Shown here one piece after another: positions 22,212 to 39,791 of a DNA stretch of 64,000 nt. How positions within the stretch are numbered: the stretch's first letter is position 1; the number at the start of each line of letters is the position of its first letter. A program made the position numbers and the translations under genes. Below the pieces are notes generated by a model. The model saw nothing but the letters and a program-made list of their open reading frames with translations. It had not been told where the DNA came from and ran no database searches. The stretch is from Tetramitus jugosus (taxonomy: Eukaryota > Heterolobosea > Eutetramitea > Acrasida > Vahlkampfiidae): NCBI GenBank assembly GCA_937625935.1, contig OW569376.1, positions 186,001-250,000 on the forward strand, given 5' to 3'.

Positions 22212-23506
22212 TTATGACTCTATTAAGATGCTCCAAATGCTACGAGCGATCTTTCTCAGTCGTAGCGTCGTCGTTTCCATGAAAGCCTTTCGACCATTAT
22301 ACCGACTGAGCGTGTGGACACGAGTCAAATTAACATACGCTTTGTCAGTGATTGATTCTTGGTTACAATGATTCATATTGAGTGTATGAACACCGTTCAA
22401 ATAAGAGAATGCTTTGTCCGTGATTGTTGATTGATTGCACCCACTCATGATGAGCTCATGAATACCTTCTAGGTGCGAAAAGGCCTCATCTGTGATGGTT
22501 CTTTGAGAACAATTACTCATATTGAGTGTGTGAATGCCCTTAAGGTGTTTAAATGCTTCATCTGTTATTTGCTTGCAATCAAACATTGAAAGTGTGTGAA
22601 TGCCAGTCAAATGATAAAACACTTCGTCTGTGATGGATTTTTGAGAACATCCACCCATATGGAGTGTATGAATACCTGTCAAGTGTTTAAAAGCTTCATC
22701 TGTGATTGTTATTTGATTGCAATAACTCATAGTGAGTGTATGAATTCCAGTTAAATGAGAAAAGGCATTGCTTGTGATTTGGTAGCAACCACTCATAGAG
22801 AGCGTATGGATACCAGTCAAGTGAACGAAAGCGTCGTCTGTAAAATTCACACAATAGCTCATATTGAGAGTGTGAATGCCAGTCAAATGAGAAAACGCAT
22901 TGTCTGTAATGGATGGTTGACTGCAATGACTCATATTGAGTGTATGAATACCTTGTAGATGCGAAAAAGCCTCATCTGTAATTGTTGTTCGATAACAATG
23001 ACTCATATCAAGTGTATGAATGCCCTTCAAATGGTGAAAAGCTTGGTCTGTGATCCTCCTACAAAAACTCATATCAAGTGTATGAATTCCAGTTGTATGA
23101 GAAAAGCCCATGTCTGTGATTTGATTGCAACCACTGATGTTGAGTGTATGAATGCCAGTCAAGTGAGACAATGCATTGGTGGTTATACTCATGCAACCAC
23201 TCATATCAAGTGTGTGAATGCCTTTCAACAATTGAAAATGCTGATCACTTACAGAGAGATTTGTATTCAAGTCCACATTGAACAAGGTTCCTTTTCCCAA
23301 TGCAAACAAACGTTCAATCTCTTCGGAATTCAACTGGACTTTCAGTGTTTTTCTCTTGTTGTGCATGACTTGTCTGTTGTACTTGAATTGGTTAATTCCT
23401 TTGCAAGTACAACTCAACTGCAACCATTCTCGAGTGTCACAAAACTCAATAATATTCGACCATGTGTCCTTGCAGAGCCGAACAGTCGAACAAATCTCGA
23501 TCTCAT
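22212..23506 (-). CDS. F-box-like / cysteine-containing LRR protein with a broken or mis-framed 5' end
   Basis: The main frame runs from 23513 to the stop at 22212. Its body is about 12 leucine-rich repeats of the cysteine-containing type (SHLTGIHTLNMSGCNQITD with small changes), as in AMN1 and F-box LRR substrate receptors of SCF ubiquitin ligases. Just before the repeats the frame encodes DTWSNIIEFCDTREWLQLSC, which is the second half of an F-box. This frame has no ATG before the F-box. The only nearby ATG (23506) is in another frame, so a one-base shift or an unrecognised start is needed. The first in-frame ATG (23366) would drop the F-box part. Confidence 0.7.
22300..23235 (-). repeat. 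Coding tandem repeat (LRR units of about 72-81 bp)
   Basis: The LRR part of the F-box-like gene is repetitive at DNA level too: variants of CTCATATTGAGTGTATGAAT recur every 72-81 bp across this stretch. The similarity between units suggests recent expansion or gene conversion within the array. Confidence 0.7.
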
Positions 23507-35349: not shown

Positions 35350-37083
35350 ATGACAGAGGATCAACAACAACAACAAGTAGAAAACACGACTGTTCCATCA
35401 TTGGCAGAAGAGACTGAAGAAGATCGTCTCAAGAGAGAAAAAAAGGATAAAAAAGAAGCTGAAAAAAAGAAGCGACGTGAAGAGCAAAAGCTCAGAGACA
35501 AGGAGAAGAAGAAGCTCAAGAAGCAACAAAAAAAGGACACTCCTTCCACTGCTAGCACCACTTCTTCTTCAGGAGCCAATAAAAAAGTCAACTCTGATGG
35601 CATCACCATCAAGAAGACTGAAGATTTTGGTGAATGGTTCACTCAATCCATTACCAAATCAGAAATGATTGAGTACTATGATGTCAGTGGATGTTACATT
35701 TTGAGACCATATTCGTATGAGATTTGGGAACAAATCAAGTCATTTGTCGATGGTGTCATTAAGAAGATGGGTGTCAAGAATGCCATGTTCCCACTGTTTG
35801 TCACCAAGAGTGCACTTGAGAAGGAGAAGGCTCACGTGGAAGGATTTAGTGCTGAAGTCGCTTGGGTCACCAAATCTGGTCAAAGTGATTTGGCTGAGCC
35901 ATTGGCCATTCGTCCAACAAGTGAAACCATCATGTACCCTGCATATTCCAAGTGGGTTCGTTCCTACAGAGACTTGCCACTCAAGTTGAACCAGTGGACC
36001 AATGTGGTTCGTTGGGAGTTTAAGCACGCTGTTCCATTTATTCGTTCGAGAGAATTCTTGTGGCAAGAAGGACACACTGCATTTGCAACTGAACAGGAAG
36101 CAGGTGAAGAAGTGTATCAAATCTTGGACATGTACAGACGTGTGTACGAAGAGTTGTTGGCCGTTCCTGTTGTCAAGGGAAAGAAATCAGAGAGTGAAAA
36201 GTTTGCTGGTGGATACTATACTACGTCGGTGGAGGCATTCATTCCAACCAATGGACGTGCTGTCCAAGGAGCCACTTCTCACTGTCTCGGTCAAAACTTT
36301 TCCAAAATGTTTGACATTCAGTTCGAATCCGAACAGGGAGGTGAGAAGCAATACGCTTGGCAAAACTCTTGGGGTCTCACTACGAGAACCATTGGTGTCA
36401 TGGCCATGGTTCACGGTGATGACGACGGTGTCGTATTCCCACCAAGAGTCGCTCCAACACAAGTTGTTGTTGTTCCATTGTACTTTAAGGACCGTGTGGA
36501 CAATGACACATTGAACAAGAAGGCCAAGGAGATTTATGATGCATTGATTGATGCAGGTGTGAGAGCTGAGCTTGACACGAGAGACTACAAGAACCCAGGC
36601 TTCAAGTTTAGTTATTGGGAAGTGAGAGGTGTTCCATTGAGAATTGAACTCGGTCCAAAGGACTTTGAACAAGGTCAAATCACATTGGTCAAGAGATATA
36701 ACCGTGAGAAGTTTACCATGTCATTGAACGAATTTAAGGGAGCTGATGTTCAAGCTGTCTTGGACAACATTCAACACGAAATGTTTGAAAAGGCAAAGGC
36801 TGAGAGAGACAACAGAATGCCAAACGTTCACACATGGGCCGAGTTTATGGCCGAGTTGAACAAGAGCAATATGTGTTTGGCACCATGGTGTGACAGACCA
36901 GAATGTGAAGAACAAATCAAGCAAAGATCCAAGCGTGACAGCAATGAGCAAGAAGCTCTCTTGACTGCCAGCGCAAAGAGTTTGTGTATCCCACTGGAAC
37001 AAAAGGAATTGCCAGCCAATCAAAAGTGTGTCAACTGTGAACACGATGCCAAGTTGTGGTGCTTGTTCGGTAGAAGTTATTAA
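35350..37083 (+). CDS. PRORS: Prolyl-tRNA synthetase (cytosolic, archaeal/eukaryotic type)
   Basis: The 577 residues start at ATG 35350 after a CAA-rich leader. A Lys/Glu-rich, charged N-terminal extension (about 85 residues) precedes the class II core: EDFGEWFTQSI, DVSGCYILRPYSYEIWE (motif 1 area), VVRWEFKHAVPFIRSREFLWQE (motif 2, near 225) and GVPLRIELGPKDFEQ (motif 3 and anticodon-domain join). The C-terminal zinc-binding domain has its cysteines (CLAPWCDRPECEEQ, KCVNC) and the protein ends CLFGRSY with the terminal Tyr typical of the family, so the gene is complete. Its TAA stop (37081-37083) is part of the TTAA at the edge of the Fanzor element, which has displaced the original 3' UTR to 39772. 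Confidence 0.97.
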   Translation: MTEDQQQQQVENTTVPSLAEETEEDRLKREKKDKKEAEKKKRREEQKLRDKEKKKLKKQQKKDTPSTASTTSSSGANKKVNSDGITIKKTEDFGEWFTQSITKSEMIEYYDVSGCYILRPYSYEIWEQIKSFVDGVIKKMGVKNAMFPLFVTKSALEKEKAHVEGFSAEVAWVTKSGQSDLAEPLAIRPTSETIMYPAYSKWVRSYRDLPLKLNQWTNVVRWEFKHAVPFIRSREFLWQEGHTAFATEQEAGEEVYQILDMYRRVYEELLAVPVVKGKKSESEKFAGGYYTTSVEAFIPTNGRAVQGATSHCLGQNFSKMFDIQFESEQGGEKQYAWQNSWGLTTRTIGVMAMVHGDDDGVVFPPRVAPTQVVVVPLYFKDRVDNDTLNKKAKEIYDALIDAGVRAELDTRDYKNPGFKFSYWEVRGVPLRIELGPKDFEQGQITLVKRYNREKFTMSLNEFKGADVQAVLDNIQHEMFEKAKAERDNRMPNVHTWAEFMAELNKSNMCLAPWCDRPECEEQIKQRSKRDSNEQEALLTASAKSLCIPLEQKELPANQKCVNCEHDAKLWCLFGRSY

Positions 37084-37096
37084 GGTGGCGGTCTAC
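37084..37096 (+). repeat. Left terminal inverted repeat of the Fanzor element
   Basis: GGTGGCGGTCTAC is the exact reverse complement of 39755-39767. Including the TTAA flank the match is 17 bp. Confidence 0.92.
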
Positions 37097-37099
37097 CAA

Positions 37100-37130
37100 C
37101 TCCTCGTATAAATAGGGCTCCTCGTATAAA
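37100..37130 (+). repeat. Subterminal direct repeat in the Fanzor element
   Basis: CTCCTCGTATAAA occurs twice, at 37100-37112 and 37118-37130, 18 bp apart and just inside the left inverted repeat. Short subterminal repeats often bind transposase. The TATAAA parts could also serve as promoter elements. Confidence 0.7.
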
Positions 37131-37699
37131 ATGATTTTTGTTTGAGAAAAAAGAAGCAAGATGTGGGTCGATCAAAAAACATCAGAATCCATACACAAGT
37201 GTTAATCATCCACAATACTGTGAATTCTCGGTTACAAGCAACACTTTCGTGCTTTGTGATTTCTCTGCGGCGGAGGTTCGGGCTTCTTTATTTGGGCCAG
37301 TGGACAGGAACATTGAAGCTCTCTGGAGAATACAAAAACACACTTGGATGATGAGTCATCCACACGTTGTCATTAAACAAGTTCTGAGTCAAAGATGCAA
37401 TACTTGGTAGAGTTTCATATTGGAGTCTCCTCCAGTAGATGATTTCGGTTGTTGTGTGTATTGGTTCAGAGGATGGACGATGGACGTTTTCTTTCAAGAC
37501 GCGAGATTGAACCACCCAAGAAGAAATAAAGCATTTGCCAAACGAGTAACGTCATCTTTCTGTTGCCTAAATCTCAGTTTCCTCTAAGCTGCGGAATTGG
37601 TGCAGTTGTAAAAATTTCCGTTGAGACTGTCTTTACAACGGCAACGGCCATCTACCTCGGTTTAAAAAGCGCTGTCTTTTTCGCTGTTTGATTCAACTC
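37131..37699. other. 5' part of the Fanzor element, no second gene seen
   Basis: About 570 bp between the left-end repeats and the Fanzor leader. An open frame (37138-37410) lacks similarity I can name. A TTTAAAAAG near 37660 may be the Fanzor TATA element. The region probably carries the promoter. Confidence 0.4.
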
Positions 37700-37747
37700 A
37701 CACAACAAATACAACACACAACAAATACACCACACAACAAATACAAT
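37700..37747 (+). repeat. 16-bp tandem repeat in the Fanzor leader
   Basis: Three copies of ACACAACAAATAC lie at 37700, 37716 and 37732 (period 16) and end a few bases before the Fanzor ATG. The leader mimics the CAA-rich leaders of host genes in the window. Confidence 0.75.
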
Positions 37748-37753
37748 AACATT

Positions 37754-39682
37754 ATGCCACGAGGCGTGCCTAAGGACGGCAAGAGAAAGAGGAAGAGAAA
37801 AGCTGTCGAAAAGGACAAATACTCATCACACTATGTGGTCAAGGTCGGTCTGAAGTCTCTGTTGTTGCATCATCCAACTCTGTTACCAATCATACAAACT
37901 CAAGCTCTGGAGATTACAAGGATTGCTCTTCGACTCACAAGATTTATAAACATATTTGTTTTGAGGCACTTGGAGAACAATTGTGATATCCCTCTCTTGA
38001 ATCAAGGATTTATTCAACGAATCGGTTCAGTGTTGTTTGGACGCAAGTCGAAGACAAGAGACGATAATGTCAACCTCATCAACGGGTCTGTCAACATGGA
38101 TGACGTAACAATCAAGCTAAGGAAGATTTATGAGAAGATTTCCAAATCCATCAATTACGTTGCCAAGTCTCTCAATGTCAATATTTCTAACATGCTCAAG
38201 TTCACATTGGAACAAAGACTGAGAAAGTATTTGAGAGTGAGGATGAATCAATTGCACAATGACCAATCAATCCCAAGGTCTGAATACAGAAGAGTCATAG
38301 AATACATCATCAGAAAGTTGACATTCGCCACTCCAGTTTATGATTTTGTCAAACTGCCTCCAAAAGAGTTGATAGAGACTATTCCTGTGTTGATCCGAGA
38401 GGTTCGAACACTTGTTGGTGCTAAAGCTGACGAAGTGATTGATGAATCTTTTGTGAACAACAACACCAACAACATGCTGAAGTTTTACTGGCATGTTCAA
38501 CAGTTTCTGATTGGCAATGGAGTGAAATCATTTGCATTGTTGCCCTTGTCCCACTTTAAATGTAGATGCATGGAGATAGGTACGACGGACCTGATAGACA
38601 TGCTCCAACAGAAGAAGAAATCTGGAGGACAAAAGAAGGGAAATGTACAAGTAATTGAACCCATTGAATTGAAATACAATCTCGAGTGTTTGAATATCGG
38701 AACAAAGAAGATTCAAATCGACTCTATCAGAACTGACGGTATTCAAGCCTCAGTTGTTCTCAGACATCAACTCGTTGGCAATCACAAGAACAATAAGGCA
38801 AAAGAATCCAAGGGCCAGAAAGAAGCAAAGAAGAGAAAGAAAGAAACAAGTATGAACGAAGGTGCTGAATATTTGGTTGGGATTGACCCGGGTATTGTTA
38901 CGTTGGTGAGTTGTGCTGATTCAGATGGCAAGAAGTGGGAGTTGTCTAACAAAACATATAGACATCTGTCCCACCATTCAAAAAACTCCAAGCGATTGTT
39001 GAAATACAAAGCAGAATGGAACGAAATGAATGAGAAGAACTTGGATGAACTCCAAAACTCAATCAAACAGGCCGGTGTACCAACAAGTGGTCTGTTCCTT
39101 GAACACATCAATTCTGTAATGAAAGTCGAGGATGATTTGTTGAATTTTTATTGCACCCCAAAGGTGAAGAGACTGAATTGGGATAGCTATATAATGAGAG
39201 ATAAGACGATTGCCAATGTTATGAATGACTTTCGAAAGAGAGCAAATGGAAGAAGCATGTTAATTGGGATGGGCAATGCTGGTTTTGGTCATTGTTACAA
39301 AGGACATGCTCCAACACCAAAAGGAAAGCTATTGAAAAAGTTGAATGAGCACTTCAAAGTGAAAATGATCGACGAATTCATGACAAGTCAGAAATGTCAT
39401 CATTGCCATTCTCACATGAAGCCAGTCAAGCATAAGAGAATAGACAAGAATGGAACGTTGAATGTCTCTGTCGTCCGAGGAGTTAAACAGTGTGCAACCA
39501 CTAAATGTTTAGTGACTCACAACAGAGACATCAATGCGGCCAAGAACATGCTCCATCTACTGAGAACAGAAATGGATGGACAGTCACGTCCCGATGCCTT
39601 CAAGAGGAAGAAAAAGGTCGCAAAAGAATTAATCAAAATGGTGGAACACCTCCAAGGCTCACTCCATCAAGCTGCTATGTAA
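37754..39682 (+). CDS. Fanzor RNA-guided nuclease (eukaryotic TnpB homologue)
   Basis: The 642 residues start at ATG 37754. The N-terminus is a strong nuclear-localisation signal (GKRKRKRKAVEK). A 350-residue helical, basic region follows (probably the recognition and wedge parts). The RuvC nuclease fold then starts at GIDPG with D378. The usual RuvC-II Glu position (IGMGNAGFG) has no acidic residue. Glu541 in MIDEFMTSQKC is the likely substitute, as in the rearranged catalytic sites described for Fanzors. The zinc ribbon is C548-x2-C551 ... C580-x4-C585, and the last acid is D592 in NRDINAAKNML. Fanzors cut DNA using a guide RNA made from the 3' end of their own element. All parts look intact, so the protein may be active. 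Confidence 0.93.
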   Translation: MPRGVPKDGKRKRKRKAVEKDKYSSHYVVKVGLKSLLLHHPTLLPIIQTQALEITRIALRLTRFINIFVLRHLENNCDIPLLNQGFIQRIGSVLFGRKSKTRDDNVNLINGSVNMDDVTIKLRKIYEKISKSINYVAKSLNVNISNMLKFTLEQRLRKYLRVRMNQLHNDQSIPRSEYRRVIEYIIRKLTFATPVYDFVKLPPKELIETIPVLIREVRTLVGAKADEVIDESFVNNNTNNMLKFYWHVQQFLIGNGVKSFALLPLSHFKCRCMEIGTTDLIDMLQQKKKSGGQKKGNVQVIEPIELKYNLECLNIGTKKIQIDSIRTDGIQASVVLRHQLVGNHKNNKAKESKGQKEAKKRKKETSMNEGAEYLVGIDPGIVTLVSCADSDGKKWELSNKTYRHLSHHSKNSKRLLKYKAEWNEMNEKNLDELQNSIKQAGVPTSGLFLEHINSVMKVEDDLLNFYCTPKVKRLNWDSYIMRDKTIANVMNDFRKRANGRSMLIGMGNAGFGHCYKGHAPTPKGKLLKKLNEHFKVKMIDEFMTSQKCHHCHSHMKPVKHKRIDKNGTLNVSVVRGVKQCATTKCLVTHNRDINAAKNMLHLLRTEMDGQSRPDAFKRKKKVAKELIKMVEHLQGSLHQAAM

Positions 39683-39767
39683 ATCCCGATTATGTAGGAG
39701 CGTTAAGGTGTCTTATCGGGAAACCATAATGTTTTTATTATGGCTTGATGGACAGTAGACCGCCACC
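39664..39767 (+). ncRNA. Predicted Fanzor guide-RNA (omega/fRNA) scaffold
   Basis: The right end can fold: an outer stem pairs CCATCAAGC (39664-39672, inside the last codons of the ORF) with GCTTGATGG (39743-39751). Inside lie CCCGAT/ATCGGG (39685-39690 with 39715-39720) and the perfect hairpin CCATAAT-GTTTTT-ATTATGG (39724-39743). About 16 nt then lead to the element edge. In TnpB and Fanzor systems the scaffold overlaps the 3' end of the nuclease ORF and the guide is read from the flank beyond the right end. Here the guide would begin in TTAAGGTATCAGAG. Boundaries are inferred; no expression data. Confidence 0.65.
39755..39767 (-). repeat. Right terminal inverted repeat of the Fanzor element
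   Basis: GTAGACCGCCACC is the exact inverse of the left end at 37084-37096. TTAA follows. Confidence 0.92.
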
Positions 39768-39791
39768 TTAAGGTATCAGAGTACAACTCGA

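Follow-up and report, generated by a model that had tools for sequence, protein, structure and literature searches.

What does an RNA-guided nuclease do for a transposon in which it is the only gene? The question is raised by an intact element in Tetramitus jugosus, at positions 37080-39771 of a 64,000-nucleotide stretch of contig OW569376.1 (assembly GCA_937625935.1, positions 186,001 to 250,000; hereafter the window, G000:C33:186001-250000 in our coordinates). The element is 2692 bp long, carries TTAA and perfect inverted ends, and has a single gene, encoding a Fanzor. Fanzors are RNA-guided DNA-cutting enzymes. The biological role of their cleavage is stated as unknown in the excerpts considered here of Saito et al. 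(PMC10432273). Having compared copies across the genome (26.3 Mb, 56 contigs), we hold with fair confidence, from sequence comparison, that this is a non-autonomous TTAA cut-and-paste transposon with the Fanzor as passenger, and that duplications beside its truncated copies would be the scars of Fanzor-driven cut-and-copy homing.

The evidence that carries this reading comes from copies that have kept their right end. Among 39 such copies, 21 also have a left end, 13 lack one and were read in both flanks, and five are unsettled (C27, C2:593737, C1, C47, and C39, the last of these too diverged to read). Six of the 13 truncated copies (five without the doubtful L056) are flanked by TTAA plus about 6-22 of the same host bases; the number is still six when all 18 copies without a known left end are counted. 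Left of the break stand TTAA and the first bases of the right flank, and the 3' end of the element is exact. Comparison of the two flanks gave duplications of 21-22 bases after TTAA in L075 (C25; one indel), 18-20 in L025 (C24; two mismatches), 12 in L057/L035 (C3; then a 6-base filler), 8-11 in L034 (C52; GTC common to the element), 9 in L056 (C2; boundary doubtful) and 6-9 in L058 (C48; CGT common to the element). Microhomology of 1-3 nt was present at the junctions of L025, L034, L058 and L075.

Every left flank was scored against all right flanks, and the right flanks were then shuffled among copies 20,000 times. The copies' own scores totalled 109, compared to a shuffled mean of 41.7 and maximum of 94, so that the observed total was reached in none of the shuffles. 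The six scar copies scored 13-22 against their own flank and at best 8.5 against that of any other copy. With L056 dropped (12 copies) or scored 0 (13 copies) the total was 96, again reached in 0 of 20,000 shuffles. Loss of sequence was also one-sided: leaving out fragments that have neither end, 13 copies with flanks read have a right end and no left end, compared to two copies (C12:183260 and C45:176676) with a left end for which DNA and end-pattern searches found no right end (p 0.007).

A second asymmetry concerns the base before TTAA. Two pairs of TTAA ends occur in the family, type A (GGTGGCGGTC) and type B (TTAAGGATGTAGTTCG...), which differ in their last ~25 bp and have the same gene and 3' region. 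Of 29 left junctions, 28 have A or T in front of TTAA (type A 13/13, type B 9/10, scars 6/6), while the background is 57% for all 336 window sites on both strands (p 2e-6) and 50% for intergenic sites. On the outer side of right ends, A or T was found in 18 of 33 (Fisher p 1e-4 relative to the left; L020, which is a left end, is excluded from this set). Removing the scars left 22 of 23 left junctions with A or T, still different from the right ends (p 8e-4). With up to two mismatches allowed anywhere, TTAAGG opens every one of the 39 type A ends found (left and right), so that C stands before the right TTAA; the end-collecting patterns include the bases next to TTAA, and it is mainly the two-mismatch search that supplies this C. 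Because the right junction also reads TTAA plus the guide target, a bare TTAA target-adjacent motif (TAM) would cut the element's own locus. Given the C, an [A/T]TTAA TAM would spare the filled allele. Such a TAM, letting the enzyme tell an empty from a filled site, is what we predict.

These patterns suggest a probable route. A transposase from elsewhere would move the element into TTAA sites, and its right end would be transcribed into an omegaRNA whose 3' tail, by analogy with Spizellomyces, would be host flank. Any uninterrupted allele bearing [A/T]TTAA and the same flank would be cut by the Fanzor some 16-21 bases beyond TTAA. The filled allele would then serve as repair template, with the right-hand side of the break invading it and copying leftward through TTAA, the omegaRNA and the Fanzor gene. 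Complete copying would normally restore the full element; after an early stop, the left-hand stump would be fused to the new end, which gives a 5'-truncated copy with TTAA and up to about 21 bases. The right end would thus be kept and the left lost because copying runs leftward from the right flank, and resection with microhomology joining would fit the shorter duplications. For flank bases to stand left of the element, the break in the uninterrupted site must have fallen a few bases right of TTAA, which is where a flank-guided Fanzor would cut. In the excerpts of PMC10432273, SpuFz1 cuts after 16/17 bases on the non-target strand and 20/21 on the target strand, and GtFz1 cuts at 14-17 with the TAM TTAAN. 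Our longest duplications (18-20 and 21-22) sit at the SpuFz1 limit.

Could the template have been RNA? A Fanzor cut might prime reverse transcription of a transcript comprising Fanzor, omegaRNA and guide, which would yield 5' truncation and the same duplication. The truncated 5' ends, intact 3' ends and 6-22-base duplications after TTAA do resemble target-primed products, but we consider this route unlikely. A DNA template is favoured by L058, whose element sequence starts at position ~44; this point lies at the second TATA-like box and so probably precedes the transcript start. Nor is there poly(A) between the element and TTAA at the right junctions listed.

We judge it slightly less probable again that the copies arose by abortive gap repair after transposase excision, with no Fanzor cut. 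Internally deleted copies that retain both ends do exist (C8:461447, C6:42967 and C8:128468). However, a transposase break would leave a left stump ending in TTAA, so excision should not supply extra flank bases, yet six of the 13 truncated copies (five if L056 is dropped) carry bases of the right flank. Gap repair is therefore disfavoured for the scar copies; the internal deletions may be its products, as may some of the seven truncated copies that lack a clear duplication.

LINE (long interspersed nuclear element) insertions characteristically show 5' truncation and duplications of variable length, as do the copies described here. It nevertheless seems very improbable to us that a LINE acting in trans retroposed Fanzor transcripts: at the right junction the element stops precisely at its transposon end, TTAA follows without poly(A), and every duplication starts with that TTAA. 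Equally improbable is an asymmetric [A/T]TTAA preference of the transposase itself, with the duplications as unrelated repair at random breaks: the two ends do differ inside their 13-bp repeats and 7 of 13 truncated copies lack a duplication, but random breaks are not expected to cluster within 22 bases right of TTAA.

Several observations weigh against homing by the Fanzor. The seven copies without a clear duplication (L014, L018, L038, L074, L031, L077 and L053) include one with a 9-bp word shared at the junction and no left TTAA (L018), one with TTAA and a poor match (L038) and one with TTAA+1 only (L053); our model must explain them by resection past TTAA. Three of the unsettled copies (C27, C2:593737 and C1) had no nearby second TTAA+10 in a word search. 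L056 is doubtful: the duplication was itself used to define its left boundary and lies in sequence common to A_long copies, and at its BLAST-derived end L056 scores 0. At 21-22 bases, the longest duplication just reaches the SpuFz1 limit or oversteps it by one base, and it surpasses the GtFz1 limit. An asymmetric transposase could also produce the left A/T preference. Finally, the fold of the omegaRNA region gave a z of -1.69, which is not significant alone.

The 3' non-coding region has at least 35 matches in the genome (right ends), 24 of them spanning all 93 bases. The right ends vary too little for covariation; by eye, the first stem of the most diverged one (L032) shows a matching double change, from CCCGA/TCGGG to CCCAA/TTGGG. 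Gene ends and 3' regions are alike even between diverged copies: L043, the most diverged of the copies compared, is 69.5% identical over the coding sequence, yet agrees at 284 of 300 positions at the gene end (last 300 nt) and is 100% identical to the copy in the window across two 120-column stretches nearby. Copies are also mosaic, L039 and L058 being 95-100% alike from alignment column 1200 on and 70-94% before. We considered RNA constraint as the reason for the alike 3' parts and set it aside, since the mosaic profiles make exchange between copies an equally good explanation. Ordinary gene conversion would fit the mosaicism, as would template switching in repairs begun at the right end.

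The element itself has the form given to it by the initial annotation, a complete transposon with 13-bp perfect terminal inverted repeats and flanking TTAA. TTAA followed by GGTGGCGGTCTAC starts at 37080, and GTAGACCGCCACC followed by TTAA runs up to 39771, giving arms of 17 nt each (TTAA plus 13) with 100% complementarity; the TTAA target duplication is that of piggyBac elements. On direct reading and in the open reading frame (ORF) list, the left TTAA (37080-37083) includes the stop codon (TAT TAA) of a prolyl-tRNA synthetase ORF at 35350-37083. The insertion has left this protein whole, because the TTAA supplies its stop. Arm comparison placed the left inverted repeat, a type A end, at 37084-37096 (plus strand, as are all following features with a strand). 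Two TATA-like boxes read directly at 37107-37133 (TATAAATAG and TATAAAATG) may form a promoter. Copy comparison revealed a junction at 37573/37574 (element position ~494), 5' of which longer copies differ, some by VPS35 fragments; the body from ~495 is common to copies whose 5' parts differ. The Fanzor ORF (37754-39682) is followed by the putative omegaRNA scaffold, which extends from the stop codon to the right TTAA (39683-39767). It ends in the right inverted repeat (39755-39767, by arm comparison), which puts C before the directly read right TTAA (39768-39771). The predicted guide would be about 20 nt of host flank (39772-39791), following the SpuFz1 omegaRNA layout in excerpts of PMC10432273.

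As to the surroundings, the best solved match of the prolyl-tRNA synthetase is 6nab, which we take to be a structure from Naegleria fowleri. Elsewhere in the window (22212-23366), a protein built from GIHTLNMS-type repeat units resembles leucine-rich-repeat proteins by eye.

The 642-codon gene is unbroken, as the initial annotation held, and ORF inspection, profile search and alignment agree on its product. The catalytic acids of the RuvC fold lie where they had been placed, at D378 (GIDPG), E541 (IDEFMTS) and D592 (HNRD), together with the CX2C...CX4C zinc ribbon (C548-X2-C551 ... C580-X4-C585). The motif D-X(125,275)-[TS][TS]-X2-[C4 finger]-X(5,50)-RD, given for TnpB/Fanzor in the part of Bao and Jurka considered (PMC3627910), is present as D378-X165-T544-S545-X2-C548..C585-X5-R591-D592, and its residues and E541 are invariant in a six-sequence alignment. 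A profile search, proposed beforehand as the check on Fanzor identity, supported it, with Pfam Cas12f1-like_TNB matching at 39.2 bits (cut-off 26.3); OrfB_IS605 (16 bits, cut-off 30.5) and NCBIfam guided_TnpB (28.8 bits, cut-off 100) stayed below theirs. SpuFz1 (8gkh), a Fanzor1, was the only solved chain matched at E up to 1 (E 4e-14). Fanzors had been said to be reported from Naegleria: excerpts of PMC10432273 do include one from N. lovaniensis, but it is a Fanzor2, whereas the sole solved match here is a Fanzor1. The N-terminus (MPRGVPKDGKRKRKRK) is basic, and a nuclear signal is predicted there. Six related proteins, with 23-98% identity, were found among 7998 scored candidates; 357 pattern matches in viral contigs included no relative.

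A search for further copies had been proposed, and they proved plentiful: DNA search returned at least 62 matching pieces (all such counts being lower bounds) and protein search 64. Four match the whole 2692 bp at 97% (C4:104060, C4:445790, C19:419646 and C16:99227), each in different host flanks, which rules out a chance arrangement. ORFs of at least 600 aa were present in 18 of 21 distinct copies examined, and the median ratio of nonsynonymous to synonymous substitution rates (dN/dS) among these 18 was 0.18 (range 0.09-0.36, 153 pairs), so the nuclease has been maintained under purifying selection. One type B right end (C24:244713) has lost its TTAA and reads CCAAGG.

Other features of the family may be recorded here. 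Longer elements (L039, L042, L051 and L056) carry captured fragments of VPS35 (retromer), and VPS35 matches adjoin Fanzor pieces at 21 loci; the host gene is likely C22:81999-84489. Next to the truncated Fanzor copy of L056, a host ORF of at least 415 aa (L056:4924-6168) has a start region that is also found in the A_long element L039 elsewhere, and the part of this gene carried by L039 is a captured flank. Two solitary fragments of the left non-coding part (~135-392) occur in L073 and L072 (C14:515569 and C45:332440), one of them including an inverted segment. Runs of T immediately precede several type B insertions (L081, L083, L084, L008, L052, L054 and L055).

Which transposase moves the element? 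The initial annotation invoked a piggyBac- or Sola3-type enzyme acting in trans, and for piggyBac this was not borne out: none of the 13 PF13843 piggyBac-domain matches in the genome lies between type A or B ends by coordinates, and nine of ten fetched piggyBac loci, when scanned (L059-L067), had no such end beside the gene. The sole near-identical piggyBac pair whose ends were read terminates in CGGCCAGATTTTACC. These two copies (L066 and L067, at C18:38735 and C39:393561) are 99.95% identical, have a 582-codon open frame and apparently moved recently. We rejected L060 as the cognate locus, because its lone, imperfect TTAA end pair (13/16 matching) is too weak and unlike A or B, and took the word TTAAGATGGCGA inside L061/L062 as chance. 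C32:2808-4989, considered as an autonomous B-ended element, proved on protein search to contain a Fanzor, in two pieces and 39-44% identical to that of the window. TTAA duplications are also made by Kolobok.

Among known systems, SPu-1/SpuFz1 of Spizellomyces punctatus is similar in several respects (excerpts of PMC10432273 and PMC3627910). Both have a single-ORF Fanzor gene, a Fanzor1 in SPu-1 and putatively so here, between inverted repeats and an omegaRNA region (putative here) between stop codon and right end; no transposase has been found with the ends of either, and Fanzor-less 'ghost' relatives of SPu-1 keep the omegaRNA region, as in this family. SPu-1 differs in its putative TA duplication and CATA TAM, in place of TTAA, and a truncation scar is not among the features described for it in those excerpts. 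The CA before its left repeat is half of the CATA TAM (PMC10432273), an arrangement that our predicted [A/T]TTAA rule resembles. GtFz1 of Guillardia theta shares a TTAA(N) TAM with cutting 14-17 bases away (PMC10432273, PMC11423790, in part), but its locus seems to lack inverted repeats (PMC10432273).

The closest parallel to the scars comes from the Fanzor1 elements CRe-1/2/3 of Chlamydomonas, as described in the excerpts of Bao and Jurka (2013; PMC3627910). Truncation at the 5' end is frequent in these elements, the 3' end is nearly always intact, and truncated copies mostly show 7-19 bp duplications directly after a TTTT-like insertion motif, except at the full 5' end; some duplications are far longer (44-443 bp). 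Helitron-1N1_CRe, which has no Fanzor, almost never shows a duplication (1/200). The authors ascribed the scars to Helitron rolling-circle replication and left the Fanzor's part open (PMC3627910). CRe-1/2/3 resemble the window family in their truncation, intact 3' ends and duplications right after the insertion motif, and differ from it in having Helitron2 ends, the TTTT motif and spliced genes. Since the same scar occurs on a TTAA inverted-repeat element, a Helitron is no longer needed to account for it.

IS200/IS605 elements produce no target duplication. Our proposed route nonetheless resembles their TnpB-driven cut-and-copy, in which the empty site on the sister chromosome is cut and repaired from the filled copy (PMC10432273, in part). 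That system is bacterial and moves by TnpA peel-and-paste, whereas the window element has a duplicated TTAA, with the preceding base as a possible difference between target and filled site.

We see about an even chance that this extends beyond one family, that is, that Fanzors serve as homing nucleases of eukaryotic DNA transposons whatever the transposase, that the short variable duplications of this family and of Chlamydomonas are scars of a single kind, and that the base before the duplicated motif separates empty from filled alleles. Searches of open-licence PubMed Central text listed no paper as reading truncated Fanzor copies as homing scars. If the Fanzor drives homing, its TAM should be [A/T]TTAA, its cut should fall at a distance of about 21, and the C preceding the right TTAA should act as self-protection. 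In that case, duplications that start at the TAM and reach no further than the cleavage distance would record Fanzor cutting and copying in nature, as a genomic footprint that could be counted in any genome with Fanzors.

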